From positions 372,001 through 436,000 of the forward strand of contig JAKZZE010000036.1 of the NCBI GenBank assembly GCA_024220505.1: a stretch of DNA of 64,000 bases, given 5' to 3'. Made by a program: the position numbers and the translations under genes. Of the stretch, positions 39,011 to 64,000 are shown piece after piece. Position 1 is the stretch's first letter. Every line of letters starts with the position of its first letter. The notes beneath the pieces were generated by a model. The model saw only the letters and a list, made by a program, of their open reading frames with translations. It had not been told where the DNA came from and searched no databases. The stretch comes from Rhizopus arrhizus (lineage: Eukaryota; Mucoromycota; Mucoromycetes; Mucorales; Rhizopodaceae).

Positions 39011-39588
39011 CAGTAGGTGAAAAAATACGAGCAACCTCTGTTCGATTTGTGTTCATATCTTTTTATTTTCGTGTGTACATTCGCCAGAGCTTTGATATCA
39101 CACAAACTAATTAAGACAACAAAGATACATACAATACACTAAAGAGATTGACTGTACTTGAAGTACAAGCTTTTTAAAAAGAGAAAGACAGTCATAAAAA
39201 AGCCAATGATGATTTTTCAAAATTCGCTATGTTTATTTGATATTTCCTATATCTTCCCTTTGCTTTAATAAGTGCTTCTACTTTGGCTGGCATACTATTG
39301 ATGTGCCTCTTGCAAGCATTTGCATTGAGTTTATTTCGCTCTACATCCACTAATTCCTAAATCTTTCTGACACCTCTTTCTCCGACTTCATATGGTGGCA
39401 GATTAAGTTTGAGCTGATGCCAAACATGCTTTATATGATTTAAATCCAGACTTTGACCACACCAATAATTTATATACCTTACACTGATACCGCATACCTA
39501 TACAGCTATGACTTTTAATTTATGCTTTACGCCGCTATCACTCTGAAGGTATACATCAGACGTCTTCAAATAATGGTACTCTAACGTA
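39011..39588 (-). mobile_element. Truncated Tc1/mariner-like element
   Basis: Begins after a TA with CAGTAGGTGAAAAAATACG, a Tc1-type end. On the minus strand at 39225-39480 it encodes the C-terminal end of a transposase: an SLDLNHIKHVWHQLKLNL block (the SPDLNPIEHLW motif, mutated), then ACKRHINSMPAKVEALIKAK. A stop interrupts it. The copy ends where the intact element at 39589 begins; the missing half is not seen beyond 41237. Confidence 0.7.
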
Positions 39589-41235: not shown

Positions 41236-41239
41236 TACA

Positions 41240-41477: not shown

Positions 41478-41732
41478 TAATAATAATAAAAAATAAAAGT
41501 AAAAATCTTTGTTAAAATGTAAATATTATTTGAAGCAAGTATTATTAATACTTTATGTAAAAAAATAGCCAAAGTGTTAAGATAATCAATTTAAAAAAAA
41601 ATTGTAATGGTATTCGTTTTTGTGTGTCTACAATATAAATACAAAATAAAACGATACATAAAAGCGTTAATTTAAAAAAACGAATCACAGCTATAAAACT
41701 GCAATTGCAACTTCCTAAAAAAAAAAAAAAGG

Positions 41733-41806
41733 ATGCACCGCACGTTTCGAACCGGTGACCTCTTGCTTAGGAAACTGACGCCCTAACCAATCTGGACAAT
41801 AACATG
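41733..41806 (-). pseudogene. tRNA-like relic (Arg-CCT-like)
   Basis: Read on the minus strand it has a box A-like TGGTTAGGGCG, a D-stem GTCC/GGGC, an anticodon-like TTCCTAA loop, a box B-like GGTTCGAAAC, and a T-run terminator (14 T) just after the 3' end. The anticodon stem, T-stem and acceptor stem contain several mismatches, so a functional tRNA is unlikely. It could be a pseudogene or the head of a tRNA-derived short repeat. Confidence 0.45.
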
Positions 41807-41861: not shown

Positions 41862-44527
41862 CACTGCAAATAATCGTTCCCATTAGGTACCGGATTGCGC
41901 AAGATTGCTCTTCTTTTGGGTAACGGATTGTTATTTTTTTTCCTGAAAAAAATTAAATCTTGCTGTATTGATCATTTTCGAATTTTGAAAAAAGATTTAG
42001 ATGCGAAAAAAATAAAGAAATTTAACGATGTTATTATTTTATTTGTAGGGTAAATATTCATGGAGTTATTCACATTTTTAAAAAAAATGTCTTTTTTTAC
42101 AAATGATCTTTTTTTGGAAAGCGTATTTCTCTCCATTGTTTAAAGACCGATATTTTCTTTTTTTTTATTTTTGAGGACAAAATGCGGAAAACAAAAGCAC
42201 AATGTGATTATTTTGATCAGAAGAATACATATTAGGAAGGCAGTCTGTGCTTTTTAGCTTAGCTCATTAGAAACGTGTAACAGAACGTAACAAAATAGTT
42301 GCGTTTGGGAAAAAAAAAGAAGCTGAAAAATTAAAAGTAAAAAAAAATAAAAAAAAGACAAAGTTAAAGAAAAGACTGAGTAAAAAAAAAAAAAGAATAT
42401 AGCAATAAAAGGTTCCTTATTCAAATGAAAACAATAATTTAACAGCAAATATACTTTATAGAAATGCAAATGTTCTTGCATTATAACAAAAGAATACATG
42501 TGTATTCTAAAAAGAATAAAAAAATAAAGAAGCTCTGCTCACATTTTGTTGCAAGGCAGTTATAATTAACAAATACAAGCACAATTTTTTTGTTTTCAAG
42601 TAAATAGATTGTTTTATTATTTTTTATGACAAATAATATAAAAGAATATATGTTTTTAAGCTTATATTAGTTCATTACTTACTTTGTATTTGCAGATGGG
42701 TGTAATTTGCAATTTGCCATTAGCCATCAGCCATTAGAGATGTTAACATTGCCAACTTCCTTAACTAAAAAGAGTTTTTCAGCAGCAAGCAGTAATATAA
42801 GTTTGGTATTCTTATGGTTTTATCATGTTGGGAAGAACAACTTTGCTCATGAGGCTCATGTTCATCATCCGAATGTGTCCCATTAGGAATTCCTAATGTA
42901 AAAAAAAAAAAAGAAACTGACATTAGACTTGGTTGTTACTTTTTTTTTATAAACTTACATATGATCAATACTTGAGCATTCTTTTTTATCTTTTGTACCT
43001 TTGACATCTAGTATATTCCATGAAACAAAACAAGGGAGAAAAAAAAAAGATATTGTTTTACTGCTATAATTTGTTAAGATACCGACTTTTTTTTTTATTT
43101 CAAGTAAAAAAAAATAAAATAAAATAAAATAATAACCTTCCTCCTAAACATATTGCATTCAAGTAATAAAACTTGTTCAAGCAATGTATAAGTTATCTTT
43201 GGGATACCATTAAATGTAAACTACATGAAAAGCAATTGTTTTTGTTTTCTAATATAGATAGACAGTGAATAAGTGTAACATTGGTAAAATAAGGCTACAA
43301 AAAAGCACTTCTCTTTTTTTTTTCTTTTTTTTTCTTCTCTTTTTTATAAAAGGTAAGTTCTTAATATTACATATGTATTCTATTCCTATTCTAATGGTAC
43401 TTGTACTTTAGTAAAGATGTATCGATTGCTTTTTTTATGGTTTAAATAGTCTTTATAAAGTCTCTTTCCCAGAATTGTAGTTGCTTCTTCTTTTATTTGT
43501 TGGTATAAGCTTGACTGGTATCTTTTTTTTTCTTTTTTTTTTCATGGTCCATCCAAAGCAAGGTACTATTACTTTTGCTACATATACTCAATAGCTAATA
43601 ATTATTATAGATGCCTGCTGCTTCCTTTTTTTTACTTATTGGTAAAAGCTTAGCTAGTTTTCTTCCCCTTGTCTATCTAAAGAAAGGTACTATTGCTTTT
43701 ACGATATATATACGATGGCTAATAATTATTATAGATAAATGCTGCTCTGCTTTGGCCTCTTTCTGTTTCTTTCCTGATTTTTACTTTGGTTCTTAAGTAC
43801 TGATGTACTTCCATCTTTTGCTTTAAGTGCCCTGGTCCTTGTGTCTTTGAATCCTAGAATCCTTGAGCTTGCTTTTTTTTTTTTCTTTTCTTTTGAGAAC
43901 TTTTAAAGTTCCACGAGATTAATTGATGTATTTTTAGATTAGATGCTGCTATTCTGGTGACATTAGGTAAGTCAAGCACACTGTTAAAACGCTACAAGCA
44001 AAGAAATACTATGTATTGTTATTATTATTTTATTTAAATAAAAAAAAAGCTATTTTTTATAAACAAAATCCCTATTTTTTTGTATATATAAAGCAATATT
44101 TATTGCAATATGAATGGTCGATAAAGAAGTATATAAAGCAATATAAGTGGTTCATAAAGAAGTATATAAAGCAATATGAGTGGTTTATAAAAGAGCAAAA
44201 AGACAAATAAAGTAGTGTTTTACAAAGCGTGATTGGTTGCCAAGCACCATTAGATGTCAAATTGATAATAAACAAGAGCCACAACGTAACTGATGAAAGG
44301 TCCACCTTGCAAGATCAGTTAACGAAAAAGTCTCCCAACAGTCTCCTGTGTTGGCCACAAATCTTGCACCATCACATAACCAAAGGGCGAACAATAGCTT
44401 ACACGATTTGTGGCAGAGACAGGAGGCTGTGCGTGGATAAATCTCTTACCTGATTGTACACGATTGTAAATTATTTCGCAAGATTGGTAAACGATTTGTT
44501 ACCCAATTTACACTATTATTTGCAGTG
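41862..44527. mobile_element. Element A: non-autonomous CACTA-like element, internally deleted relative of B
   Basis: Starts CACTGCAAATAAT (41862) and ends ATTATTTGCAGTG (44527), a 13-bp perfect inverted repeat. It is flanked by GAT on both sides (41859-41861, 44528-44530), which fits a 3-bp target duplication. The left 1.2 kb resembles the left arm of B (44532-45760). The right part from about 43260 resembles B from about 50450 to 53520. The B genes between these points are missing, so A has no coding capacity and would depend on a transposase supplied in trans. Confidence 0.85.
44106..44204 (+). repeat. Subterminal 33-bp tandem repeats of element A (3 units)
   Basis: Three 33-bp units beginning CAATAT-AGTGGT and containing ATAAAGAAGTATATAAAG, near the right end of A; the third unit is diverged at its end. 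Because 33 is a multiple of 3 they leave an open frame that is not a gene. Subterminal arrays are the usual binding sites of CACTA accessory proteins. Confidence 0.8.
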
Positions 44528-44544
44528 GATCCACTGCAAATAAT
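44515..44544. repeat. 30-bp perfect palindrome at the A/B junction
   Basis: The right end of A, the 4-bp spacer GATC and the left end of B together form an exact 30-base palindrome. It exists because both 13-bp ends are intact and the spacer is itself palindromic. Confidence 0.95.
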
Positions 44545-45851
44545 GTTGCGCCTTTGACGTAGAATTCTGATATCGGTGACAGTCATAGGTCCACAGATTT
44601 TAAAGTTTTTTTTTAAAAAAACAATATATCTTGCTGTATTGGTCATTTTCGAAATATGAAAAATGATTTAGATGCGAAAAAAATAAAGAAATTAAGTAAT
44701 GTTATTTTTTTCATTGTAAGGTAAATATTCATAAAGTTATTCACGTTTTAAAAAAATGACTTTTTTTTTTTACAGATGATCTTTTTTTGGAAAGCTTGTT
44801 CTCCTCTATCGTTGAAAGACCGATATCTTCTTTTTTTTATTTTTGAGGGCAAAATGCGGAAAACAAAAACACATTGTGATTATTTTGATCAGAAGAATAC
44901 ATATTAGGAAGGCAGTCTGTGCTTTTTAGCTTAGCTCATTAGAAACGTGTAACAGAATGTAACAAAATAGTTGCGTTTGGGAAAAAAAAAAGAAGCTGAA
45001 AAATTAAAAGTAAAAAAAAAAAGACAAAGTTAAAAAAAAAAGACCTAGTGAAAAAAAAAAAAAAAAAAAAAAAAGAGCATAGCAATAAAATGTTACTTAT
45101 TCAAATGAAAACAATAACCTAACAGTAAACATGTTTTATAAAAATACAAATGCTTTTACATTATAACAAAAGAATACGTGTATATTCTAAAAAGAATAAA
45201 AAAAAAAGAAGCTTTGTTAACATCTTGTTACAAGGCAATGATAATTAATAGATACATGCACAGTTTTTTGTTTTTCAAGTAAATAAAGTGCTTTATTATT
45301 TTTTATGACAGATAACATAATAGAATATATGTTTTTAAGCTTATATTAGTTCATTACTTACTTTATGTTTGCACATGGGTGTAATTTGCCATTAGCCATT
45401 AGCCATTAGAGATGTTAACATTGCCAACTTCCTTTATCAAAAAGGGCTTTCAACAACAAGCAACAATATAAGTTTGATATTCTTATAGTTTTATCGTGTT
45501 AAAACGAACAACTTTGCTCATGTGGCTCATGTTCGTCATCCGAATGTGTCCCATTAGGAATTCCTAATGTAAAAAAAAAAAAAAAAGAAACCGACATTAG
45601 ACTTGGTTGTTATTACTTTTTTATAAGCTTACATTTGACCAGTGCTTGAGCTTTCCTTTTTTTTTGTTTTGTGCCTTTGGCATCTAGAGTATTCCATGAA
45701 ACAAAACAAGGGAAAAAAAAAAGAAGTTGTTTTACTGCCTTATTTCATTGTTTAAGCACCGACTGTTTTTGCAAATTTACTACTCGTTTTTTATCAGGCG
45801 CATTTTTTTTTTTCCTTCTTTATTTCTTTACAAAATACTAAATTCTTCAAA

Positions 45852-48721
45852 ATGAACAACATCAACAACATTAAAATCGCTTGCACTTGTACCGAATGCA
45901 GCATGCATCCCGGTGGATTTAGAAGACTTGCAAAGAGAACTGTTCTTACTCATAAGCGTCTGGACAGATTCAGAGGAAGAGGTTATAGTTTTTATTTTTT
46001 CGTATAAACGCACTCGTGTTAATGTAAAAAAAAAAAAAAAAAAAAAAATAGAGTCCAGAAGACAAGTAGCCGAAGTCATGCAACAACCAACAGCCGTCCT
46101 TGAAAACGAAAGTGAGCATACCACCTTTGAAGGTATATTTTCAGTCGACAAAGCATTTTACATTAGAAAGGATTTATTTATTGAACTGTATTTTACAATT
46201 TGTTAGACCACATGAATGTTGATGGAGAGGAGGAATTGAGCCACGAAGAACAGCTCAAGCATCTTTTGGTGCTCTACGTGGTTCTTTTTCAAGCAAAGTA
46301 CCTCTCTGTACAAGCTGGTGAAGAATTGTTGGCCTTTCTCTCTTTCTTTGTTCGTGCTCTTGGCCATGACATGGAGATACCAACAAAGATCTCCACGGCT
46401 CGTGTCATGGTCAACTACTCGTCTGCCAGCAGTGGTGTTTCTCGTTTTCTTGTCTGTTCCCTTTGCAGAAGCGTTTACACCACGGGAAGTTTGCATGCCC
46501 GACAATGCTCTTATGTCAGGTTTGCAAACAACCCTCACCGCCAAGAACAACCATGTGGTAATCCTCTTTTTGTTGGAAGCACCGTCAAGCCTGCTCTTGA
46601 GTACCCTTACAACTCAATTTTGGAAACGTTGAAGAAGTTTTTTGCTCGTCCTGCCTTCGAGTTCCAAATTGAGCAGTGGAGAAGTAGATCGGTGGAAGAG
46701 GATGTTCTTTACGACATCTATGATGGTAGAGTTTGGAGTCAGCTTGCCGACTCAAATGCTCAGCCATTTGTCAACAAAGAAAGGTCGTTGATGGTGTCGT
46801 TGAATGTGGACTGGTTTCAGCCTAGTGACGGTATGCACTATTCTTGTGGTGGTGTGTACCTCACTATCAACAATCTCCCAAGAAGTTCAAGGATGAAGAC
46901 TTCCAACGTTATTCTTGTTGGTATGATTCCTGGTCCTGGCGAGCCCACGGATGACCAAATTCAAAACTTCTTGCGGCCAATGGTGGATGAGTTGATTGTC
47001 CTGTACGATGGTGTGGTTATACCCACCTATCAATGCCCAAATGGTATGCTTGTTCGTGTTGCTTTAATGTCAGTCAATTGCGACATACCTGCAGCGCGTA
47101 AAGTAGCCGGGTTTATGGGGCAGTCAGCTCATAAGGCTTGTAACAAATGCTCAACTGTCTTTCCTAGAATCAGTACTGGTGTGAATTCATCCAAGCCTGA
47201 TTTTTCCAACTTTGATGATGAACACTGGATAATGAGGGACAGTATTCAACAAAGACAAGAAGCATTTGACTGGCTGAATGCAACTCACATCACTCAGCAA
47301 AGAGCCTTACAGACGAGCACGGGGAGTAAATGGAGTGAGCTCCATAGACTTTGTTATTTTGATGTGGTGAGATTGACAGCTGTGGATCCAATGCACAACT
47401 TGTTTCTTGGTACACCAAAAAGAATGATTGAAGTTTGGGAAGGCCGTGGTTTGCTCACTGTAAATGATTTCAAGGCAATGGCTGATGAATCTAGCTCAGT
47501 TATCATTCCTTCTCAATACTGCAAGATATCTAGATGTATGTAACAAATATAAAAAACTTTAATTCATGTTCAAGCTAACAATTATTTTTTTTTTAAAAAA
47601 AAAAAGCCAAGATTGAAAGTTGTTTCAGTAACATGAAATCAGACGAGTGGAGAACGTGGTGCGTTGTGCTGTCGCCATTTCTCTTGAAACAGAAACTGGC
47701 AAGAGAGCACTTTGACAATTGGATGCTGTACGTTGAAGCGGTGAAATTGGTCACTGGGCCCCTTGTTACAAATGAAGACATAGACATAGCCCATTCACTC
47801 TTTAAAAATTTTGGCAAGACTTGTGTTCGACTATATGGAAACTCTATGGCAACACCAAACATGCACATGCATATGCATCTCAAGGAATGCTTTTTGGACT
47901 TTGGTCCTTCTTATGCCTTTTGGCTTTATGGTTTCGAACGCCTTAATGGTAACATAAAAAATATAAACATTAATTTTAAGACAGGCTTCGAAACAACCTA
48001 TGCAATTATGTTTATCCAAAATGTTCATACACAAGACCTCATACACTCATTACATTCATTCATTAACACAACCAACAATGACATGCTCCTATTAGTGAAA
48101 TCTATAGAAAAGATAGGCGAGGTTACGAGTGATGAGAGTGGTTTAACGCCATTTGACTACTCTCGTTTCATAGACGGGCCTAGTTTATTCAATTCGACGA
48201 TTACTGGTAGTGAGCCTCTGCCACCAACCTCCTATCCTTTAAAATACAACAAAAAAACACACCTTATATGCCATGAACATTATGAAGCTTTAAAAGCCTA
48301 TTATATCTACACCTATGCAACTAATACATACATCGATACTACTATACATTCATTTAAAAATATCACTTTGCTTGGACAACTTTATCAGCCAGCAATTAAC
48401 AATTCCTTTTCATCATCACCTTCATCATTCATTCAGGCCATTGTCGACAATCAACTGCGCATTGGTCAAATATCATATCTTTTCACACATTCATTTAACA
48501 ATATGACTCATTACTTTGCATTTGTCAATTGGTACAGCCATGCGACCCAGCATTTCCCCACCTTCGATGGTACTGGCATCCAAGTGTGGAAGAATCAATA
48601 TGAACCAGTGTCAAGACTTAGCATACTTCCAATTCATCGAATTTATAACCCTGTTGCTGTCAAATCATACATCGATAACCACATCCTCACTCTCTCTCTT
48701 CCAAGAAAAATTTATATGTAA
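45852..48721 (+). CDS. KDZ/Plavaka-like (Tnp2-related, CACTA superfamily) transposase of element B
   Basis: Four exons (45852-45981, 46052-46132, 46207-47535, 47607-48721) join in frame to 884 residues. The N-terminus has a C-x-C-x2-C...H metal-binding motif (CTCTECSMHPGGF ... TVLTH). The central part carries the family blocks LNVDWFQP, VYLTINNLPRSSRMK, ILVGMIPGPGEP, CDIPAARKVAGFMG, CNKCSTVF and VDPMHNLFLGTPKRMI. The C-terminal part has SDEWRTW, NMHMHMHLKECFLDFGP and YAFWLYGFERLNGNIK. Acidic residues in LNVDWF, VDPMH and FERLNG are the likely catalytic triad (inference from CACTA relatives). It should cut and join the CACTGC ends. Introns 1 and 3 end in long poly-A before the AG, which is unusual. 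No stop or frameshift is seen. Confidence 0.88.
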
Positions 48722-48910
48722 CAAATATGCAAAACCATTAAATCATTCATTTATCTATCGATATTATTATTATTATTTTTATTTTATTACATATTTTACT
48801 AAAGAATCATTCAATAGACTAGCTTTTTTTTTTTAACAAATGTTTATTCAATTTGAAAAACGACAACAAAACAAGGAACAAAAAGGAAAGGAAAAAAAAA
48901 AAGTGGATGC

Positions 48911-50188
48911 CTATGGCATTGGGTTGACGGCGGCAAAGGAGGAAGAACCAGAAACAGAAGTTGGAAAGCCAAGAGCAGGGGAAGAAAAAGCCCAGGAAGG
49001 GTAATACTCATGGTCGAGCTTATAAGGGAACTCCACCTCAACATTTTCTATTCTTCTTCTAATAGCTGGTGGAGCCCCCTTTTTCTTTAACAAGTCTTTG
49101 TGCCCTTTCTGCAGCTCTTTGTGGAATTCCACTACCTGTAGGCAATTAAGGTATATTAGAAAAAGAGGTTTATTGATATGTTATACTTACTCTTTCACTT
49201 CTGAATGATGGCCGCTTGACAATAAATGTACGGCCATCTTCATCTTCTGGGCCATCCTCCTCATCAGAGGTCCAAGCAACCGTCAAGATCTTTTCGGCAA
49301 ATGGGAACCGGGCGTGGTATGCTGCTGCGTTGGCGTTGTAAGCAATCCTCCTGTTAAGGAGTTTCTATCATAAAGTATTGATATAAGTATTATAGGCATT
49401 TTATATTATGATTTTTTGAATATCAAGTACTTACTGCATTTACGCGGCTGCGGCAGGCTGACGTTGGTGTCGCCACAGCTTTCCCATTTGCCTTATCCAC
49501 CATGTAATAGAACTTACTTCTAATCATGGTGAATATCTGCGAATCAGTCAGGCAATTGAAGCGTTGGTGCTTCCTGACTTCATCGCGCAACAGATTTTTT
49601 ACTTTTCTGTTGGCCTTGTCGGTGATGGACTTGAGCGTATCAAACTTGATGCCACGGCCAACCAAGTATTCACGGTAGTGATCAGCTATGTGATCCTATA
49701 ATGTAAGTGAAAAAAATTAAGAAATAAAGTTACTAAATTGAATTTACTAATTGATACTTTAATTTTTAGCTTACACTACACTGCTTTTTGATCTTGTTGA
49801 TCTCAGCCACAGAAACATACTGCTGCCCTTGCTGTGGCTGTTGAACTGAATGTTGCTGCTGCTGCTGCTGCTGTTGCTGTTGCCACATTTGAGCAAAAAA
49901 CTGCATTTGGGCAGCCATCATCTCTGGTGTGAAACTAGAGGCTGCTCCAATAGCCTCTGCACCAGTATGGCTACCAAATGTTGCAACAGGAGCGGCCACA
50001 GGAGCAGAAACGGGAACAGGAGCAGAAGCGGGAACAGGAGCAGGAGCGGGAACAGGAGCAGGAGCAGGGAAAAGAGAAGAGGAAGAAGGAACAACAGTGG
50101 ATGATGATCCAGCGATATTTGAAGAAACTCTTGCCCTTTTTGGGGCATTGCTGGGAACGTTGATGGGTGTAGCGACGCGTCTAGACAT
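48911..50188 (-). CDS. Partner protein of element B (unknown family; possible DNA-binding accessory factor)
   Basis: Four minus-strand exons (50188-49775, 49695-49435, 49364-49191, 49135-48911) join in frame to 357 residues. The N-terminal third is low-complexity: a basic start, Ser-rich, then a Pro-Ala repeat and a Gln run (QQQQQQQQQQ). The middle (about residues 139-225) is a folded-looking basic/helical segment (HYREYLVGRGIKFDTLKS, RKVKNLLRDEVRKHQRF, MIRSKFYYMVDKANGKA). Then come NRRIAYNANAAAYHARFPF and an acidic stretch. It is convergent with the transposase (190 bp between stops). The middle blocks and exon count match the partner gene of element C at low similarity. By analogy with plant CACTA TnpA it may bind the subterminal repeats; that is inference. 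Confidence 0.8.
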
Positions 50189-51024
50189 TTTTTAAAATAA
50201 AGTATAAAGAAGAAGAAAAAAGAAGAATGTGCTACATTGTTTTTATATTCTTCAGTTTATTTTGTACTCTTTTTTTTTTTTTTTTTTTTTTAAAAAAAAA
50301 AGAAAAAAAAAAACACTATTAGGGTTGAAGATGTTAAATTTAAATAAAGAATAAGTCTAACAATATATAAACAAGCTTTTTGAATATTTTAATAGCTGAA
50401 CTGTGTTAAAAAATGCAGTTGAAACGAGCTTTCATGGTTATTAGAATTTACTAATACTGAATAATTGTAACACTTGTAAAATGAAGCTATAAAAAAAGTA
50501 CTTTTTTTTCCCTTTTTTTTTTCCTTTTTTTTTAAAAAAAAATCTTTTCTGAAAGGTAAGTTCTTAATATTATATATACTCTATTATTGCTCTAATGGTA
50601 CTTGTACTTTAGTAAAGTTGTGTTGGCTGCTTTCTTTATAGTTTAAATTGTCTTTATAAAGTCTTTTTCCCAGGATTATAGTTGCTTCTTCTTTTACTTG
50701 TTGGTATAAGCTTGGCTGGTGTCTTTTTTTCTTCTTTTATCTCGTGGTTCGTCTAAAGCAAGGTACTATTACTTTTACTATATACTCCATAACTAATATT
50801 TATTATAGATGCGTTCTGCTTCCTTTTTTTTTACTTGTTGGTAAAGCTTAGCAAGGTTTTTCTCTTAGCCCATCTAAAGAAAGGTACTATTACTTTTATT
50901 ACATATCCTTCATAGCTAATAATTATTATAGATGTCTGCTGCTTTTTTTACTTGTGAGTATACGCTTAGCTAGTTTTTTTCCCATGGTCTATCTAAAGAA
51001 AGGTACTATTGCTTTTATTATATA

Positions 51025-52654
51025 CAGTAGCGGACAAAACTGGTGCACAAAAATTAAAATCAACATTGTATCTCCGCCATATGTCTGCGACTTTTGTGGC
51101 ATATACCATCTGAAAGACAGTCCAAAATATACATTATGTTATGTAAACCGGAACTGTACCGGACATCCCCCAGGCATAAGGTCATTTTTAGTGATTTTTT
51201 GCATATTTCAATTTTCGCCAAAAATGTGGTGCTTGTCTAGCCTTCTTTCAATTTTCCCCATATCTCTCCCGTTTGCTTTCAGATTTCACCGCATATTAGT
51301 GAATTATAGTAGCTCTTAAAAAATATATAAAACCGTAGTTATTTTGTATTTCCCATTGAATCCCCCCTTTTGTTTTTACCCTATTCACTATAACAAAGTA
51401 CTAGCCTTATATGTTTAAGAAAATAAGCAACTGTAAAAACGAAACTCTGAGATCTCGAATACACTTAGTTCGTACGACAACAGATATTTCTAGAATAACA
51501 AGAATCTCTAAATGGACAATCAACAGGAGAAAGAGGGAAGAAAGAAACTTAATGTCTTGTGATCATGAAGGTCTCCCGCTTTTAGTCTGAAAAGTTACTA
51601 GCTCAATCACCAACCTAAAGCTTGGACAAGGTCCGTTACACACAGTTTCCGATGCTCAGCACATTTTGAGGACCTTAAGATACAGTATTAGCAAATTGTC
51701 AGTCTGAAGGCACTGTAGGAAGCTAGATTTTGAGTCTGGAAGTAAGGAATCGAAGAATTTCATCAGCTGTATTAGCCGGAAAAAGCGATGGATGTGGTAT
51801 CACGACAAGCCATTGTATACAATAGAGGGCTGGAAGTCTGCTATGTTTAGCAATGAAACAAATATGAACATTATGGATGCAGATAGTATACACTAATATT
51901 GAAAGCAAGTCGAGCAACCTGAGCGATTTTTTCACGGTTATCAAACAATGAAGCATGCTGGCTGCTCTGTTATGTTTTAAGGCTGTATTAGATATTGAGG
52001 ACCAGAATATGTGTGTCAAGTATATGATGGTATAATGAACTCATAAATATACACATATATTTCGCTTACTTCATACCACAAAAGCCTAGCGTATAGTAGT
52101 CTAAAACGTCGTAATCTCTCGTTTCAGTATGACAATGACACAAGGCACAAGTCGACGCATGTCACAAACTCAATATTTGATAACAGCGCTTCTGTGCTAC
52201 AAGTTTAGCCGCCACTAATCCCGGCCTAAGTCCGCTTAAGCATACCAGGTGGCAATTGATGGCAAAGGTATGATGATACGACACTAGATCAAAAAGGGTC
52301 GATGATCTTTGGAAAAGAATAGTTAAAGAGCCGGGTTCTTTTACTGAAAATGATATACACGCATATTATTAGCATATGCAAAGAAGAACATCCGATGATA
52401 TCAAGAGATGAGATGATTATATAAAGTCTAAGGTCTTAGCCACTTTTGCGGTTTTTAGAAAATATAAAATTTTATAAATTTAAAGCACGCTTATCGCTCA
52501 GTTTTAACAATGTCATGCTTAGAACATGCATAAATTACAATGACTAGTATATCCTCCTTCTAGTACAGTTTCATGACTATTGCAATTACCATGAGCAGGT
52601 AATGGTAGTTAAAAGCTGAAAAAAAGTTTTGTGCACCAGTTTTGTCCGCTACTG
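51025..52654 (+). mobile_element. Degenerate Tc1/mariner element inserted in the right arm of B
   Basis: Flanked by TA on both sides and bounded by a 28-bp inverted repeat starting CAGTAGCGGACAAAACTGG; the inner sequences beyond that do not match. B-family sequence (compare element A at about 43700) resumes on both sides, so the insertion interrupted B. Confidence 0.88.
51420..52400 (+). pseudogene. Broken Tc1/mariner transposase
   Basis: Plus-strand frames carry recognisable but mutated motifs: RTTTDISRITRISKWTINR (helix-turn-helix), FSNETNMNIMDADS (the SDET region with Asp changed to Asn), a GCSVMF-GCIRY and GPEYVCQVYDGIMNS region, and a degraded QDNDPKH region (FSMTMTQGTS). Many stops and frame changes; inactive. 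Confidence 0.7.
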
Positions 52655-53060
52655 TATACACGATATTTAACATCTATTGTAGATGAATGTTGCTCTGCTT
52701 TGGCCTCTTTCTGTTTCTTTCCTGGCTTTTACTTTGGTTCTTAAGTACTGATGTATTTCCTTCTTTTGCTCTAATTACCCAGGTCCTTGTGCCTTTGAGT
52801 CCTTGTGTCTTTGAATCCTTGAGCTTGGCTTTTTTTTTTTTTTTTCTTTTGAGAACTTTTTGAGTTCCACGAGACTAGTTGATGTATTTTTAGATTAGAT
52901 GCTGCTATTCTGGTGACATTAGGTAAGTCAAGCACACTGCTAAAATGCTACAAGCAAAGAAATACTATGTATTGTTATTATTATTTTATTCAAATAAAAA
53001 AAAGCTATTTTTTATAAACAAAATCCCTATTTTTTTGTATATATAAAGCAAAATTTATTG

Positions 53061-53192
53061 CAATATGAATGGTCGATAAAGAAGTATATAAAGCAATATA
53101 AGTGGTTTATAAAGAAATATATAAGGCAATATGAGTGGTTCATAAAGAAGTATATAAGGCAATATGAGTGGTTTATAAAGAGTAAAAAGACA
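53061..53192 (+). repeat. Subterminal 33-bp tandem repeats of element B (4 units)
   Basis: Four units with the same consensus as in element A, about 330 bp from the right end. B has one more unit than A. Confidence 0.85.
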
Positions 53193-53523
53193 AATAAAGT
53201 AATGATTTAAAAAGTATCATTGGTTGCCAAATTATTTATAACGTAGAATAGACTATGTAAAGCAGCTAACAAGAGAGACGCCTTCGCAGAACGACAATTG
53301 GGTCTGTATAAATCTACTTATAGCTATGGATCATCATTTTCGTTAATATCGGCACCATACAGAGACGCAGAATATATTGACAGACATTTAGGTCCTTAAA
53401 GGGTGCCGATATTGACGTCGGCATAAATACCCATTCAATCACAGCTTTTGGCATCGTTAAACAGAAAAGCATATTGCTAAAAATTAACAATGTGCAGAGT
53501 TTGCACGATTATTTGCAGTGGAT

Positions 53524-55663
53524 CACTGCACCCAATCCCTATATTCTAAATTATTATACTTCGGGTGTTTTAACAGTTGAACTTCGAATAAAATAATACA
53601 AATTTGAATTTGCCGGATAGATATATAATATTTGTATCAAAAAAAACCTAGAAAAAAATATATGTTATATCTATAACGATATATATATGTTTATAATATG
53701 TATATTGAATAAAAAGAAATTGTATTTCTTGTAAAAAATTTTTTGTCTCTTTTGTACTACATGAATCCATGCAAACTTATAAATTGGGAAAATGAAAAGT
53801 TTTCAAATTCAGTGTATGATTTTTTAATTTCAACAAAGGTCAATAACGTAAATCCATTGGACTGTAAGCTCGGAAGTTTAACTGCTTGAGTTGCGACGTC
53901 CTCTTGCAAAGCATACTCGATTTGCTATACTGCAAAAAAAAAAGAGAGTACTTAGTATATCTACCCAAAAAAAAATTGTACGTTTATAATGAGAAGATAG
54001 AGAGCAATATTGCTTAAATTGTGAAAGGGAACATGAGTTCAATGCTTTTATCCAACGAAGTGTAAAATTAATTATTTACAACTGAAATAAAAGAATGGTC
54101 TATAGGGAAGTAATAAATATAAACGTTAAATAAAAGATAAAAGCTAGAAACAAAAATGAACAAGGAAAAAGGAAAAAAAAAAAAGAAAAAAGAAAAAAGA
54201 AAAAAGAAAAAAGAAAATGGTATTTCTTTTTTTGACCGTAAGGAAAATAGCATCTATCAAAGATGATAGTGCAATGTTTAAAGGACTAAAGCTAAGCAGA
54301 AAATAGAAGGGTATGGGTTTGGTAATCATTTTTATTTTTAATTGCAAAAAGAAACAACAATATTAACATCAAGTGAATTTACATGTCTTGAGATTCCTTA
54401 TAACAGAGACTATAAGAAAGAGTTATTGTTAATGAAATAAAATAGAACATTTGATAGATTTAGAAAAAAAGAAAAAGTAATGTTGAAATTAGACAATTGC
54501 AATGTCGGAATTACTTGCATGTGAAAAAAGCAATGTTGGAATTACGTGCATGTTAAAAAAAAAAGAATGTTAAAGTGACATTGCAAAAGAATACTTACTT
54601 TTACAAATTGTCTTAAGTTGAACAAACCTACTTACAGGACCTTCGTTTTATTTATAGAGCATACAGAGATTTACTTTGGGCTATAAAAAGCGGTTTTAGA
54701 AATTGCACTGAAATTGGAAATTTTTTTTTTTTGATTTACTTTGAAAAAAAAAAAATCTAGCTGAGACGTCAACTGCAGATGTTTTAATTCATTTGCCTTT
54801 GTGTGCTAATTGCAATTTATTATTCAATATATATGCCTTTATTTATGAGTTTTTTGTCCTATCTTTGATTAAGAATATCATTACTTTGCCTTTTTTTTTT
54901 CTTTTTTCTTTTTGGATTACCGCAGTACACTTAACTAAACTCCATCATTTTTTTTTTGTAAAGTAGTGCACTTATGTAAGTCGATCAATATAATACTGAA
55001 TATGATGGGAAAAGATTCAAATATCTTAACACAAAAGTTGAATTGATTTTACTTGATGAAAAATTTATTCTTGTTTAGCGGCACTTGTATAATGTCGGTA
55101 ACATAACAACATCAATTGAAACTTGTTCTTCCTCTGGAACTTCAAACTGAGTATTAAAGGTTCTTATTGTTTGATTTTGAAGCTGTATATAAGGAGTTCA
55201 TAAAGCGACATATCAATTGTATAAAAGTTTTTGTTGTATTTATACAAAAAGTAAATACTCATAGATAAATTTAATACTACTGAATCATAGTAAAACCATA
55301 TCTCTATAAATAAATATGAGACTTCTGCAATGATCGTCTTTGATGTATTGTTCATATCGGTATTTAAAGAACCATATCGGAACCTGTTTTTAAGGATAGC
55401 AGATCAATGTAATCCTATTTGATAAATATTGTTAAATCAATGAACAATTCACACCATTCTTGATTGATTCGTCAAGAAGACAACATGTCATATTTATCCA
55501 TTATCTTTCCTGCATCTTCCCATCCTCCTTGTATTATTATTTTTAGCCGATGAATTGAAATAACGGTAAAAATTTGTATATTCAAAAAGTATAAATAACA
55601 TCAATTGTTGCTATTAATTAAACAGTATATATCTAGTAACACACATTCTTTATTGTATTTATA
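53524..55663. other. Left arm of element C, non-coding
   Basis: AT-rich with A-runs and no gene. The block 53740-54420 is similar to 63180-63870 in element D. The last 290 bp form the transposase promoter region. Confidence 0.6.
55370..55663 (+). promoter_or_regulatory. Promoter region of the element C transposase
   Basis: A TATAAATA box at 55590-55597 lies 67 bp before the ATG at 55664. The 240 bp before it are shared with 38745-38990. Conservation of ordered blocks around the TATA box supports a real promoter unit. Confidence 0.55.
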
Positions 55664-58634
55664 ATGTACTCTTCAAGCCCATACAAATTCCATTGTTACT
55701 GTACCCAATGCTCTGGAGGAGAAGTAGGCAAGTACCAAGTTGTTACGCAATGGACTCTTGCTCGTCATAGAAAAAAAGAAGCTGTTAAAGGTTTGTTACT
55801 TACATTAAAATAATTCTTTTGCTAACGCATCATATATAAACAGGTGAATCAGAGGCAACTCCAGAAGTTAATGCCAATAATGAAGTGATTCCGTCAAGTG
55901 AAAATGATTCTGAGAATGATGGTGATGAAGACTTTTCTAATTGGCAAATCACTGACGATGGTGAAGATGATGCCTCCAGTTGTATGGATGTTGTTGAATT
56001 TAATGTGCCCAAAGGTAAACGTCTTCTAAAATTGTGTTAGTAAAAGATAAAATACTTACTTTGTCAACTTTTAGTTAAACTTGAAGGATTCCAAAATGAT
56101 GTTGTTGCTTTTATAGCAATTTTCTTGACCTATTTCCAGCTGTTTTTCATTTCTGAATATGCTGCGGAAATAGTAATGAAATTTGCTAACGATCTTGTTA
56201 TCCTCTTGAATTACGAACCAATCTTTCCTGCCAAGTTGGATACTCTTCGAAATGCTGTTGGAATCCATTATACCTATAAAGGTATGTTTCGTCTTGTTGT
56301 CTGCCCTGAATGCCACACACTATATGAACCTGAAGCAATTCATTGTGACTCAAGGTGTACTTTTTCCGAATTCCAAGGCATTTGCAATGCACAGCTCTTT
56401 CAATCTGTGAATATTGGTGCAAGCAAGATGTACGCTAACAAGGTCTCGGCATTCAATTCGATCAAGTACGCTTTGACAGTGATGTTCTCACGACCAGGCT
56501 TTGAATCAGCAATTGAAGCATGGCGCTATCGTACTCGTCATAACAACACTATGTACGATATCTATGATGGTCAATTTTGGAATGAATTCAAAGATAGAGA
56601 TGGTAATATATTTACCAGTCAAGCTAGATCTCTTCTGTTCACTTTGAATGTCGATTGGTTTCAATCTTCAAAAAGAACCGTGTACTCTGTTGGTGCTGTT
56701 TACTTGACGATAAATAATCTTCCAAGATCCATCAGATACAAAAAAGAAAATATCATCTTGGTTTGTGTTATTCCTGGACCCAAAGAACCTAAAGACATGC
56801 AAATCAACAACTATTTGCAAGTTTTGGTGAAGGAGCTAAAGGATCTCTATTATGGTGACTTCTTCACATGTACAGCTGATTCTCCCAATGCTCCTGTCAA
56901 AGTTCGTGCTGCTCTGTTTTTGATTGCTTGCGATATTCCTGCTAGCCGAAAGGTTAGTGGGTTTACTTCATTCAATGCAACTGTACCTTGTAATAAATGC
57001 TCAACAGCATTTCCTGCTCGTTACAATACAAATCTTCAACGTGATTTTTCTTTTGGTCTTGAAGATCTTGGTGCTTGGTCACTTCGTACCAATATTGAAA
57101 ATCGTCATCATGCAAGAAATTGGAAAGAAGCATCTACAAAGAAACAAAAAGTTGACTTGGAACAGAAGTTTGGTACTCGATTTTCTGCCCTACATGATTT
57201 GGAATACCTTGATCTTGTTCGTTGTACTGCCATTGATCCTATGCATGGCCTTTTCCTAGGAACAGCAAAGAAAATGGTTAAAATATGGCGTACTACTATT
57301 TGTGACCTTACCCATGAATTATGTTTGACCGATGCTGACTTGAAAGAAATGCAAAAGGAAGCAAACGACATTATATTGCCAGCACAATACACGCCAATCA
57401 ATCAGAAAATTGCCAGCAATTTTTCTGACTTAAAAGCTGATGAATGGAGAACCTGGTGTCTTGCTCTTTCGCCCCTTTTACTGAAGTCTCGTCTTCCAGT
57501 CCGTCACAAAGAAAATTGGGCAAAGTTTGTACAGGCTTGTCACATCGTATGTCGTCCATGCATTACTCAGAATGAAGCCATGATGGCCCACAAGCTATTC
57601 CATGAGTTTGTCATTGGTGTTGTTGAATTGTATGGTCCAGAGATGATCACTCCAAATATGCATCTTCATCTGCATTTAAAGGACTCTATCCAAGACTTTG
57701 GTCCAATCTATGCATTTTGGCTGTATGGCTTGAGAGGCTTAATGGCGACATTAAGAAGATGACAGTAAACTACAAAACAGCGTTCGAAGTTACATATATG
57801 AAGAAGTTTCTTTCCGTTGTGCACTATGGTGACTACATCCGTAACTTACCACAAGGAATTAAACAGAATCCTGTGATGATGTCTTCCTTTGGTTACTTGT
57901 CACCAACGCCTTCTGATTCCCTAGTTGCTTCTTCATCTACTTCGACCTGCTTTGATTTCAGTTTATTTGTCAGTGCTCCTCTACGTTTGAATGATATCTT
58001 CACTGGTGCTGAAATTCTACCTCCTGATACGCAAGCTTTCGTTAGACACAAAGTTAATGTAGATAGATTGAATCGAGACCACTATGGTTATCTTTTCTCT
58101 TTTTACAAACTAGTATATGCTGATCGAACGTTTGCAAGTGCATTCACTCCAGAAGAATTTGACAAGTTGTCTACAATGGTGCTTCCCGATATTTCTCTTT
58201 TTTCTGAAATTCAAATTCTTGGACAAAGATATCGGTCAAAGGCATCGCGTGCTACTCGTGGTTGCTATATTGAAGTTGCTTGTAATTCTGCTGTTCTTGG
58301 ACAAGAGCCTGAAATGCGAATTGGCGAAGTTCAATATTATTTTAGCCATCAGCTTCAAATGAAAAAATCTGTCCTTCCAAATGGTCAAGTCTTTGTGCCA
58401 GAAGTCTTTGATGAGCATACCTTTGCTTTTGTACGTTGGTACAATCCTCCACTTCATCCCTTTCAAGGGTTTGAATGTCTTGGTGCCGCGTACTATCATA
58501 ACTCATTTCGACCTGCTGATTCAGACTGCATTCTTCCAGTATCACGTATATTTACTTGTGTGGCTATGAAAAAAGGCTATCCTGATAATCATGTTGTTTT
58601 TTTACCTCTTCCAAGAAAAACCATTGACTTGTAA
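55664..58634 (+). pseudogene. KDZ/Plavaka-like transposase of element C, with an apparent one-base frameshift
   Basis: Three exons (55664-55790, 55844-56014, 56075-58634). The N-terminus has the C-x-C-x2-C...H motif (CYCTQCSGGEVG ... LARH), then an acidic segment. The core has LNVDWFQS, VYLTINNLPRS, ILVCVIPGPKEP, CDIPASRKVSGF, CNKCSTAF, IDPMHGLFLGTAKKM, ADEWRTW and HLHLKDSIQDFGP. At about 57731, within the conserved YAFWLYG-x-ERLNG block, the frame slips by one base. The upstream frame stops at 57762, while the downstream frame continues to 58634 with homology to the B protein. Everything else is open. It is either a freshly inactivated copy or a sequencing indel. The break falls beside the presumed catalytic Glu. 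Confidence 0.83.
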
Positions 58635-58741
58635 AAAAAAAAAAAAAAAGTGAAGAATAAAAAGATAAAATAAAAATAAAACCAAAAATTCAAATTCCGT
58701 ATTCCTTTTTAATTTTTTTTTTATTTCGCAAATGATTATTT

Positions 58742-60086
58742 TTACAACTGCAAGTTATCTTCATTCGATACTAACTCATCACCAAAAGCCCAGGCGATGC
58801 TTTCTTCAGTTATATTTTCTTTTTTTATCAAGCTGGGAACAGGCAACGAATATTTTCTTCGAATGCGAGGAAGAGACTGAATGTTGCTGGTTCCAGTCCT
58901 TTGTCTTTTGGCCCTGTCATTTTCTATTTGATTATCCAACAGGTTGAAAATTCGGTACACTAAATGTCGGATAATTAGTTAATTGCGCTTAAAAAGATAT
59001 TAATTAAACTCACTGCAGGGGATCTATACTTTGGTACACGAACTTCAAAATAATCAATGGTTTTCGTACACAAGACAGACATACGTTCCTTTTCAGTAAA
59101 AGGAGTTATTCTATCTGGATTTTGTTCAATAAGAATTTCCTCCACCTTGTTCATTGTTTCGTCGTTATACATGTCTTCTTCTTCAGACATATATTGCTGT
59201 TGAAGCAAGTACTCACAGTTGGGATAGCTTTCGTAAACACCTTGATCCTTGTACTGCTCATATATAGCCTTACGTGCCTTGATTTTCTAAAAAAAAAAAA
59301 GTCAAATATATGATAATTATGACTTTTATTTTACTTACCGTATTTTTGCGAGTTGTTTTGGCAGCCTTTCTTTTTTCATAAACTCGTCGACAAAACCAAC
59401 CTCTTCTCCAGCCATACCAGCTTTCTTGGTATAGTACTGTCGTTCAAGGTATCTTCGTAAGTCTCGGCCATTAGTACTCTTGTAAGCATAATGGCTATTG
59501 ACATACTCTTGCAACAGCTTAAGTACTCTCTGATTCTCAGCAGACTTTAAAGGCTTGCTGAGATCGTACTTAGATGATGGAGGTAAATCATTGTAATGAT
59601 TCCTCACAGCATCCTATATTTTAAGAAAAAAAAAAAAAGTAATTAGTACACTTGTTTGAAATTAAATTATTAATAATCTTACTTTGATAGCTGTTGCAAT
59701 TGGCTTTGCACTTTTGCTTGAGGCTTCCTCAAGCTCTCTATATTCTTCTTTCAGCTTGCTAAATGCCACTTGCAAGGCACGCTTTTCTTCCTGTTCTTTC
59801 CTTAACATCTCCTTCAGAGAGTCAATTTCCTTTTTCATATCCATATAAATGGAGAAGGAAAAAGAAGATTCATCACTTCCAATGTCCTCAGTCTCACGCA
59901 TTCGCTTCTGGACATTGGTAATAGGAGGGAAGCCAGGTCTAGGATAGGCAAAGCTATCAAAAACAGCATTGCTTGAGACAACCTCAGGAAAAGCAACACG
60001 GAAGGAACAGCAATTGGCTGCCCAGGAGAGCTAGGACCACGAGCATTGGCAGGTGCAGGGTTGAATTCGATAATACGGTCAGACAT
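58742..60086 (-). pseudogene. Partner protein gene of element C, with apparent frame slips
   Basis: Minus strand, about four exons: 60086-59683, 59613-59339, about 59288-59015 and about 58960-58742. The first exon starts MSDRIIEFNPAPANARG. It changes frame near 60000 and continues through a Glu/Lys-rich coiled coil (MDMKKEIDSLKEMLRKEQEE). Exon 2 encodes RVLKLLQEYVNSHYAY and GRDLRRYLERQYYTKK. Exon 3 has RKAIYEQYKDQGVYESYP and an acidic part. Exon 4 is basic (RIRRKYSLPVPSLIKK). The exon 2/3 and 3/4 junctions do not hold frame in my reading. Blocks align weakly with the B partner (NRRIAYNANAAAYHARFP). Function unknown; likely the accessory factor of C. Confidence 0.68.
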
Positions 60087-60945
60087 AATGATAGAAGGTA
60101 CTTTGAAGGAAAAGTAAAGAAACATAACATTGAAGCTAGATACATCTTAAATACTATTGCGTTCAACTGTAAACTCAGTTCTATTTAAGTCAAAAAATCT
60201 ATAAAAGGATTGATGTCTCAGATGAATCTTTCTTTTCTTTCTTTCTTTTTTTGATTTGTTTATCCCAAGTAAGTCTCTCTTTTTTTTAAAATTTTTTTTT
60301 CTAATGTTCTTTATTAAAGATTTATAGATATACTCATGGCTGTCATAAGTTCTTGAGTCTTTTCTGTATCTGTTTATGTGGTAAGTATGCTTTTAAACCT
60401 CATTATCTTTATTAACAATCAAATTTAGTTTTCTAGGCTTGATTCTGAAGCTGTTTGAATAGTTTGGCATCGTCTTCTGGTTTTAAAGAGGTTTAATGTA
60501 GAAAGTCGGGTACATCATGTTTCACTGTAATTAATCTTTCATTTTATCTAGCCTTGACTCTATTTTCCTCCTGTTTAGTCTACTGTCTTTATCTTTATAT
60601 TGCTTTTGATCTCTTTTGAGGCTGCTTCATTGTATTTGTTTATTTTGCCTGATTTGTCTGCTATATTCTATTGTTTGATGCTTCTGAGGTCAAGGTAAGT
60701 GCAATTTTGAAAAAAAAAATTTTTTTTGTATCTACCGTTTAAAGGTGATGTTTCATTATTCCCATAAATTCCCTGCTCCTCCCCCCCCTCTTTTTTAAAT
60801 CATATTTAATAATCAAATGAACCAATAATATATAATCAATATGGCAAAAGAGCCCAAAAATAAATGAATAAAACCACATTTTTGACCAATAATACTGTAT
60901 TTTAAGCCTATTTTTTTCCTAATACAAATCATCCAGAGCTATATA
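60087..60945. other. Right arm of element C before the Tc1 insertion
   Basis: T-rich, non-coding on inspection; includes A/T homopolymers and a C-run (60781-60788). Confidence 0.5.
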
Positions 60946-62612
60946 CAGTGGCCAGCAAAACCGTTCGCACAAAACGTATTGTTTTCTTTCTGCGCCTTTT
61001 GCGACATATTGCTCTTATTAAGCGCTACCTATAATACATATTACTTAAAAGTACAAACTCTTGGCTTTCTGATGACGTATGATACGTCCCCCTACGCGCA
61101 CCCTGGCCAGTGCTACGGACAATCAAAACTCAAAGGTACATTCGAACGGTTTTGCGGCCGTATGTTTTGAAATCAAAATGTGTTAGAATAAGTTTATTTG
61201 ATATCCAATATAAAGACCATCAGTCTCAATAACTGCACGGTATCGCTCTGGCATACTTTTAATAAACGTTTGACATTTTTCAGCTGTGATTTGGTACCAA
61301 GTGTGTCCTATACGGTCCCATAGCTCATGTATACCACATGGAGGACAGTCATAGTTTCTAAACAACCGTCTTTTAAGTAATTGCCACATGTTTTCGATTG
61401 GGTTTAAGTCTGGTGATTGTGGTGGCCATTCCATTACATGAAACTCTTGCTCATTTAGCCATTTTGACACGACTTTAGCTGTAGTTTGGGGTCATTGTCC
61501 TGCATAAGATGAATTGATTGGTAGATTTTCCACTTTCTCCATATACCAAGCCAAAGACTTCATCAAATAATCTTGTAAAACCTCCAAATAGACGTCCTTT
61601 GCCATGCACTTGCCCACATCCACAATATAGCCTGGGCCATACCAGCTAATATAGCTCCATACCATTATAGAACCTCCTCCATGCTTCACTGTCTCACGAA
61701 CCTGATGCTTTTTTTAACGGTTTACCTGGCACTTTCCATGCATAAGACTTTCCGTCGGATCCAAAACTGTTGAACTTTGGTTTCGTCAGACCATATGACG
61801 TTCATCCAATCGTTTACTGTCCAGCCAATGTGCTGACGAGCCCATTGGAGCCTCCTCATTCTATTTCTTTCATTAATTAAAGGTTTCTTTGGCTTGACGA
61901 ATGAGACCAAACCAGCATCTTTTAATGCCCTACGTACAGTATCTACAGAAACTGACTTGCCCAGGTTCTGCTCCAACGACTGCTGTGCTTGTACAGCGTT
62001 TTCGAGTCCATCTGCTGTTACAGCACGATCAAGATGCTGTTGCTCCCGTTTAGTGAGCGCTTTTGGTCTGCCACCCTGTCATTTCTAGCAGGCAAACCTA
62101 ATTCTAAGCGAACCTTATGAACAGTAGATGATGATACTTTGACTATCTTTGCAATTTGTGATAAGAAAAGCCTTGACGAAGGTAAAGCTCAATGGTGTTC
62201 TTGCGATCTTCTGTCAATGGTTGCATGTTGGGTAATGACTTGGTAGATGTCGAGATTGTCGAAATGAGAATGTATGAATGACAAAAGAAAAAAAGTAGAA
62301 AAATAATGCGAAGTGATGAATTAGTAAGCAGCGAAAGTTCTGGAAGGATTGCAGGGTGCAGTTGACTGCGTTTACCGCAATCGACCAACTCCTAAAACGT
62401 GGCCGCAAAACCGTCGAATGTACCTTTGAGTTTTGATTGTCCGTAGCACTGGCTAGGGTGCGCGTAGGGGGACGTATCATACGTCATCAGAAAGCCAAGA
62501 GTTTGTACTTTTAAGTAATATGTATTATAGGTAGCGCTTAATAAGAGCAATATGTCGCAAAAGGCGCAGAAAGAAAAAAATACGTTTTGTGCGAACGGTT
62601 TTGCTGGCCACG
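60946..62612 (-). mobile_element. Decayed Tc1/mariner element inserted in the right arm of C
   Basis: Flanked by TA. Inverted repeats of about 210 bp (60946-61159 and 62401-62612) start CAGTGGCCAGCAAAACCG; the right outer end has lost one base. As in the element at 39.6 kb, the outer motif (GGCC-GCAAAACCGTTCG) recurs in inverted form at the inner edge of each repeat. Confidence 0.88.
61183..62226 (-). pseudogene. Broken Tc1/mariner transposase
   Basis: Minus-strand frames in order: MQPLTEDRKNTIELYLRQGF (N-terminal helix-turn-helix), NLGKSVSVDTVRRALKDAGL, QHIGWTVNDWMNVIWSDETK (first Asp), KHGGGSIMVWSYISWYGPGY and EWPPQSPDLNPIENMW (final Glu), then YIGYQINLF at the end. At least three frame changes separate them and the second Asp block is lost. 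Inactive, but its repeats could still be mobilised in trans. Confidence 0.82.
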
Positions 62613-62988
62613 TATAATCATAATAACCAATAAGAAAGTATTGTAAAGGCAATAAGCCAATAAAGAAGTAATTTTAAAGAGAAATAGACCTATAAGGAAG
62701 CTTTGTTAAAAGGCAATAAGCCAATAAAGAAGTAGCATCAAAGAGAAACGCAAGCATGTAAGGTCCAATGGAAAAGCGTTATGTTTGTGTATCATCGTAG
62801 AAAGAACAATGAAGCGGCGCGTCACCAAAAGTAACACGGTATTTTATATACATATCTTAACATTTCGAGCAAAATATGCGAAGTACATATTTTATGGAAT
62901 CTGTAAATATATTGACGTAAACCCGAAATATCTCATTATATTCTGTCAAATATAATGCTATATATATAGCAATTATGTGCAGTGGCCC

Positions 62989-64000
62989 CACTGCACCAAT
63001 CACCGTATCCAAGTTGATAAAGTTGATCTTTTTGATAGTGGTAATTCTATTAAATGAGTGAGAACTCGGATTTAAATGTTAGAAAGCTGATTTTTATATC
63101 AGAAGAAAGCTTGAAAAAAATAGATTGTAAATCTATAAAAATAATCAAAGTATATAATATGTTTGTTGAATAAAAAGACATTGTATTTTTTAAAAAAATA
63201 AATAATTTTCTGTTGTGCTACATGATGCCATACAAGATTACAAATTGGGAAGACTAGCTTTTTCAACTTCAGTGCAATATTTTTTAACTTCAACAAAGAT
63301 CGATAACACAGTTCTATTGGCCTACAAGCTCGGAAATCCAAGTGATTGAGTCGTGGCGTTTTCTTTTCAAGCATTCTTCGGTTCTCATGTCGTATTTTAC
63401 CAAAAAAAAAACTTTGTTTAATACAAAAGGAGATTTATTTTGGTTACTAATGAACAAAAAAAAAAAAAAAAAAAAAAAAAAGAAAGAGTAAAGAGGCACA
63501 TATGAATAAGAGGGATGAAACTCTTATATAAGTGTATAATATCGCTATAATAATAAGTATAAAAGTATGTGTTTATAAATTGGAACAAAAAAAAAAAGAA
63601 TGTGAATATAGTAGAAAATTTAAAAGATTGAATAAAATATATAAAAAAGAAGGATTCTTTTGGCTCTAAAGAAGTTAAACTTGTTTGAAGCTGAAAAAGA
63701 TATGTTTTAAATAGTAAGATCACGGCATAAAAAAGACAGAGTATTTTTGATAATCATTTTTATTTTTTGAGAGTAAAGAAAAAAAAAAGGCAACGGAATG
63801 AATGTCTATTATGCTACACGTCTTGAGATTTCTATGAAAAGGTTAAAAAACAAAAGAAAAGTATATTGTTACTGAGTACTTTTGAAAAAAAAAAAAAGTT
63901 GCAATGTTGAAATTGTAAAAAAAAAAAATTACATTCCCAGCATTGACATTACAAAAGGAATCTCCATTCAATGTACTGTTTTAACTTGAATAAAAAAAGG
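62989..64000. mobile_element. Element D: left part of a C-family CACTA-like element, cut by window end
   Basis: Starts CACTGCACCAATC, 4 bp (GCCC) after the end of C. Its 63180-63870 segment resembles 53740-54420 of C (blocks around acaaattggga, tttaacttcaacaaagatc and taagctcgga-like sequence), so it is the same family. No gene within the visible kilobase. Confidence 0.78.

Follow-up and report, generated by a model that had tools for sequence, protein, structure and literature searches.

Element B and its transposase

The window, a 64,000-nucleotide stretch of the Rhizopus arrhizus assembly that we searched (50.3 Mb, 41 contigs), contains a complete CACTA-type transposon, element B, in which a transposase gene and a second spliced gene converge (Table 1). 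The 13-mer that forms its inverted termini, CACTGCAAATAAT, has 545 genomic occurrences, and the reversed control has 0. The stretch from 45800 to 50250 has 14 near-full-length matches in the genome at 98-100% identity, the window copy counted, and we therefore take B to represent a recently mobile family rather than a chance arrangement. Ten B copies show both ends: five are flanked by an exact 3-bp target duplication, the window copy has a 4-bp duplication (GATC), one shares 2 bp only, and three share nothing. The Tc1-like element nested in B is missing from most B copies compared. Tandem repeats lie near one end of B only, and a repeat related to its 33-bp unit is present in element A (44105-44191); a short repeat motif common to both ends of B was looked for, and none was found.

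Table 1. Features of elements A, B, and C, in window coordinates
Feature	Position	Strand	Remarks
Possible tRNA relic (weak)	41731..41805	-	about 56 bp from left end of A; box-B-like TTCGAACC
Element A	41862..44527	.	2.7 kb; ends and subterminal sequence of B kind, without the two genes
Element B	44532..53520	+	complete CACTA-type transposon; limits by comparison of 20 loci
Ends of B			CACTGCAAATAATG... left, ...CGATTATTTGCAGTG right
B left terminal repeat	44532..44544	+	transposase side; 13-mer CACTGCAAATAAT
B transposase gene	45852..48721	+	884 aa; exons 45852-45981, 46052-46132, 46207-47535, 47607-48721; GT-AG splicing, translation
B partner gene	48911..50188	-	357 aa; exons 50188-49775, 49695-49435, 49364-49191, 49135-48911; GT-AG splicing, translation
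119-bp tandem repeat	50752..51025		2.3 copies; between partner gene and right end of B
Tc1-like element nested in B	51024..52655	.	approximate limits; ends CAGTAGCGGACAAAACTGG; outside both genes
33-bp tandem repeat	53042..53181		4.2 copies; close to right end of B
B right terminal repeat	53508..53520	-	inverted copy of the 13-mer
Element C	53524..62984	+	second family, same layout; ends CACTGCACCC... and ...ATTATGTGCAGTG
C transposase gene	55665..58634	+	41% identity to that of B in 560 aligned residues; interrupted frame in window copy
C partner gene	58741..60089	-	frame broken in window copy, open in L038
Tc1-like element nested in C	60947..62612	.	inverted repeats of about 205 bp; contains open frames

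Spliced translation bears out the original prediction of an intact 884-residue transposase in B, but the label "KDZ/Plavaka-like" that came with it gives way to a different assignment. The protein matches PF02992 (tnp2) with an E value of 6.3e-17 and 61.9 bits against a cut-off of 28.6, the C transposase matches the same family (E 1.7e-15), and the motifs of the B protein follow the CACTA order D, D, CxxC, HxxxH, E, with pattern matches at residues 269-275, 362-365, 382-385, 600-604, and 623-628. The D and E presumed to be catalytic were chosen from the description of the EnSpm family (Kojima 2025; PMC12730594). Since this Pfam family and motif order are accompanied by CACTG termini of the CAC..GTG kind and by target duplications that are mostly 3 bp, the sequence of the B transposase fits the tnp2/CACTA (EnSpm) type, as found in fungi. 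Plavaka elements need TGT..ACA or CATCA..TGATG termini, whereas B has CACTG..CAGTG; the KDZ (Zisupton) group needs an 8-bp target duplication, whereas those found here are 3 or 4 bp (PMC12730594). Going by its family, the transposase would cut and paste the element.

The Tnp2-like transposase, the CAC..GTG-type termini, and the 3-bp duplications are common to B and the fungal EnSpm elements described by Kojima, whereas the convergent unrecognised partner and a location upstream of tRNA genes are features of B (PMC12730594). The extra gene reported for the Kojima elements encodes a TET/JBP dioxygenase, and the terms "tRNA" and "Mucoro" do not occur in the EnSpm passages of that paper. With plant En/Spm, which encodes TnpD and TnpA, B has in common a tnp2 transposase and a second element-encoded protein. 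The partner differs from TnpA in that neither the window partner nor any of four relatives matches PF03004, the TnpA domain, in Pfam at up to E 10. It is also a separate convergent gene, whereas in maize the tnpA and tnpD transcripts overlap and arise by alternative splicing (PMC8195511).

The convergent partner gene

The second gene of B can be read, as had been proposed, as an intact, spliced, four-exon gene on the minus strand, and the proposal that its 357-residue product belongs to no recognised family also stands, no Pfam family having reached its cut-off. Pfam searches found no enzyme or chromatin domain in the partner, and no DNA-binding domain was recognised by sequence or fold searches. 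Two database searches of limited sensitivity returned relatives named Rhizopus delemar or R. arrhizus in 8/8 and 45/45 cases; no relative came from another genus or bore the name of a host gene. The protein seems to represent a new family. Structure prediction, suggested at the outset as a check, yielded helical models of both partner types, but with low mean pLDDT (61 and 60) and with no significant match in fold searches. In the AlphaFold2 models, a disordered N-terminus is followed by a long helix (residues 81-149 of P0001, 67-124 of P0021) and then by a helical core, an architecture from which we infer that the partner may dimerise and bind DNA. In one Rhizopus database protein, P0038, the C-terminal part of the partner is attached to a segment that bears a precomputed PF08598 label; a fusion of gene models may be the cause.

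The convergent arrangement recurs across the genome. Partner-gene searches gave 203 and 225 matches, listed in part; the pairing of the two genes drew on 171 partner hits, with one to a few for each locus, and on 150 of the 162 tnp2 hits, one of the 150 being below the cut-off. A listed partner hit lies within 6 kb downstream of 116 of these 150 tnp2 hits and is convergent in 116/116; the remaining 34 have no partner among the matches listed. Seen from the other side, 117 of the 163 partner loci among the matches listed stand beside a tnp2 hit and 46 do not, and 14 of the 46 sit between paired C-type ends. In this genome, homologues of the partner are thus not located mostly outside transposons, nor do most transposase copies lack one.

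Open four-exon partner genes are present in all five subfamilies that we distinguish, B, G2, G3, C, and C' (357, 348, 357, 390, and 391 residues, respectively). G2 (L037) is a B-like subfamily in which the transposase is 70% and the partner 42-53% identical to the B proteins; between these two the partner diverges faster than the transposase. The transposase of G3 (L039), also B-like, is 71-78% identical to that of B, and C' is a variant of C, 78-81% identical over the partner gene among the best 40 of 138 matches. An hhalign comparison of B-type with C-type partners spans 300 columns (probability 92%, E 5e-7), and intron positions match between the two types in an alignment judged by eye. Partner dN/dS between subfamilies is 0.12 for C/C', 0.21 for B/G3, 0.27 for B/G2, and 0.28 for G2/G3, values that are rough because the corresponding dS is 1.0 to 1.6. 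Within B, three partner-only copies compared with the window copy give 0.42-0.45, based on few changes. Seven of nine aligned B partner copies are without coding indels except multiples of three, and those of L016 and L023 have a single-base shift each.

Element C was said to repeat the plan of B. Its layout does so, the C-type partner of L038 is open with the same four-exon plan, and frames of 863-933 residues are open around other C-type tnp2 hits, but the claim does not extend to the genes in the window, both of which are broken. By our reading, the partner there carries three one-base shifts relative to L038, and the window copy of C is, to judge from these frames, a dead copy.

The partner, convergent beside so many tnp2 hits and with low dN/dS between subfamilies, is on these grounds well supported in this genome as a conserved component of the transposon and not a passenger. 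The original prediction had argued for a functional component from the conservation of position, orientation, and four-exon structure in two families, and the argument gains from five subfamilies and from the dN/dS values. CACTA transposons often capture genes (PMC8195511), and a passenger acquired by chance is an alternative; it is disfavoured and very improbable given a place and orientation that are constant in five subfamilies, matching introns, low dN/dS, and two database searches, of limited sensitivity, in which no relative lay beyond Rhizopus or had a host-gene name.

Partner genes also occur in elements that have no transposase. When C-type left ends were paired with right ones, 71 elements resulted; two of the listings of element ends covered 100 of 110 and all 90. 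A class of 22 C-ended elements of 3.85-3.92 kb contains, in 22/22 members, one match of about 1.4 kb to the entire C' partner query, whereas the 150 tnp2 hits all lie elsewhere. Partner frames were read in 3 of the 22 and are open, in L060 and L061 for 391 codons and in L024 for the 319 codons visible. Three B-type elements (L022-L024) have kept the partner, with its one-base shift in L023, and are missing the transposase. Eight other C-ended elements, of 3.08-3.15 kb, are free of tnp2 hits and of listed partner hits (8/8). These classes of 22 and eight were checked against all 150 tnp2 hits, the earlier pairing check having used 35 of the 150. Because elements of the smaller class have multiplied, the partner does not seem to be needed in cis for spread. 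Selection within the partner-only elements was considered on the basis of a dN/dS of 0.12 for L060/L061. We do not claim it, because exon 2, with 279 sites, has 43 of the 59 coding differences and the remainder of the gene few, a pattern that looks like recombination with a diverged copy.

The multiplication of elements that have the partner and no tnp2 hit (22/22 in one size class) could also mean that the partner acts against silencing of the element and is uninvolved in cutting or targeting, much as the TET/JBP genes of other fungal transposons are thought to serve escape from silencing (PMC12730594). We consider this quite unlikely, since no enzyme or chromatin domain was found in the partner and the 3.08-3.15-kb elements, with no tnp2 hit and no listed partner, multiplied too.

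Location beside tRNA genes

At 13 distinct sites, each counted once, an element end of the B or C lineage lies 55-59 bp upstream of a tRNA gene, and at 13/13 the tRNA is transcribed away from the element. Four of the ten B copies that show both ends have a tRNA gene (Ser, Val, Lys, Gly) 56-58 bp off the left end. Of 20 ends taken in succession on contigs C1-C2, leaving out those opposite another CACTGCAAATAAT end, five are 55-58 bp from a tRNA (Gln, Ser, Asp, Lys, Val); among the other 15, five adjoin the end of another element (by eye). Counting from the tRNAs, a listed CACTGCAAATAAT end, among the first 100 of 545, lies 56-59 bp from 4 of the 17 Infernal tRNAs on C1-C6. Genome-wide, a listed C left end lies at 55-57 bp from 3 of the 63 tRNAs scored among 2878 candidates, a result for which we estimate a chance expectation of about 0.0003. 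Where the end facing the tRNA is known, it is the left, transposase-side end (B 4/4, C 3/3), and the 63 tRNAs have no C right end closer than 500 bp. As a control, 97 listed Tc1 ends compared with 12 tRNAs on C1-C3 have no like spacing, the nearest being 2,029 bp away. At the 13 sites, B and C elements stand at a fixed distance from tRNA genes, as Pol III-targeted elements do. Since the tRNA isotypes differ while the distance is fixed, we suspect that the Pol III initiation complex, and not a DNA motif, would direct insertion.

Ends at L012, L024, L026, and L053-L056 lie inside repeated tRNA-like sequence, close to a box-B-like stretch. This sequence has an identical outer flank at different loci and no ARAGORN tRNA call; it may be a tRNA-derived repeat. 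Beside element A, the box-B-like TTCGAACC is 116 bp from the element end (compare L014, 116 bp, and L059, 117 bp). A tRNA gene at this position was rejected, there being no ARAGORN call at the normal threshold and no Rfam call at E 1, and the sequence is a relic at best.

Ty3, TRE5, and other Pol III-targeting retrotransposons likewise insert upstream of tRNA genes, of several isotypes, with a fixed spacing (PMC5911963), which for TRE5 is 40-54 bp. They differ in being retrotransposons, whereas B and C are DNA transposons with a DDE-type transposase and terminal inverted repeats; the elements with a fixed distance upstream of tRNA genes in the table of that review are retrotransposons (PMC5911963). 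Dada elements are also DNA transposons tied to tRNA genes, and tandem insertions occur among them, but their insertion site is defined by sequence and lies within the RNA gene, and their duplications are 6-7 bp long (PMC3706591, PMC8869645). Membership in Dada was rejected on the position of the ends, 55-59 bp upstream, and on the 3-bp duplications, though some ends do lie inside the tRNA-like repeat. In Rhizopus 99-880, Ty3 elements co-localise with tRNA genes, of which there are 239, and En/Spm elements make up 0.68% of the assembly and are without ESTs (Ma et al. 2009; PMC2699053). The repeats section of that paper mentions neither a tie between En/Spm and tRNA genes nor a partner gene; the R. 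stolonifer genome paper gives repeat totals (PMC13111411). The titles and abstracts listed in searches of the open-licence literature disclosed no DNA transposon, and no EnSpm or Mucorales element, with such a tRNA spacing. The tRNA-gene location and the partner-only elements were not part of the original prediction, and both raise the interest of the finding. A DNA transposon with Pol III-like spacing and many near-identical copies would allow targeting to be studied without reverse transcription.

This location opens a second role for the partner, that of a putative targeting subunit, which would bind TFIIIB or TFIIIC together with the transposase and so set the spacing of about 56 bp. Such a role is consistent with a distance that is fixed across isotypes, with identical spacing in B and C though their transposases are only 41% identical, and with the constant orientation of the transposase-side end toward the tRNA (B 4/4, C 3/3, with no C right end within 500 bp); in Dictyostelium, TRE5 employs contact between its ORF1 protein and TFIIIB (PMC5911963). 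We nevertheless regard the role as possible but rather unlikely. The subfamilies examined for target all carry the partner, which makes location and partner inseparable; the transposase itself could target; and a protein in contact with a conserved host factor might diverge less. Similarly tentative, and in our judgment somewhat doubtful, is the broader picture of a CACTA transposon that reaches tRNA genes via Pol III, with the partner as putative tether and with tether-only satellites. If true, this would be the DNA-transposon counterpart of the Ty3 and TRE5 retrotransposons.

Putative role of the partner and the stack of elements

The reading that we prefer, at a probability of roughly 0.5, is a two-gene CACTA/EnSpm transposon whose convergent partner is a putative DNA-binding accessory subunit of the transposase. 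The partner would pair through its predicted long N-terminal helix, its predicted helical core would hold the element DNA, and it would be required together with the transposase; in other words, a role like that of plant TnpA would be played by an unrelated protein. The accessory subunit is backed by the convergence at 116 of 150 tnp2 hits, the five open subfamilies, the low dN/dS, and the alignment of B and C partners, and further by PF02992 with its motif order, the 3-bp duplications, the predicted helices, and the tRNA spacing. Three sets of observations weaken it: (i) no DNA-binding domain was recognised, pLDDT is 61 and 60, and 34 of 150 tnp2 hits are without a listed partner; (ii) no short repeat motif common to the two ends was found, although TnpA-type binding would suggest one, and the tandem repeats lie near one end; and (iii) the partner is the faster-diverging protein, and no EST was reported for En/Spm by Ma et al. 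(2009).

Repeated insertion at the same distance from a tRNA gene would build stacks such as A-B-C. Where stacked elements adjoin, 0-8 bp separate them, most often 3. Another element, its left end C-like (CACTGCACCAATC), begins 4 bp past C and occupies 62989-64000, exceeding the window, which extends the stack to A-B-C-D. Three Tc1-like elements with inverted ends or repeats lie in the window, at 39586-41238, 51024-52655, and 60947-62612, and the second has an end with 733 genomic occurrences, the first of which were listed. The window also contains an 889-nt inverted repeat (9777-10665 and 29777-30665), the arms of which are 97% complementary and 19 kb apart.
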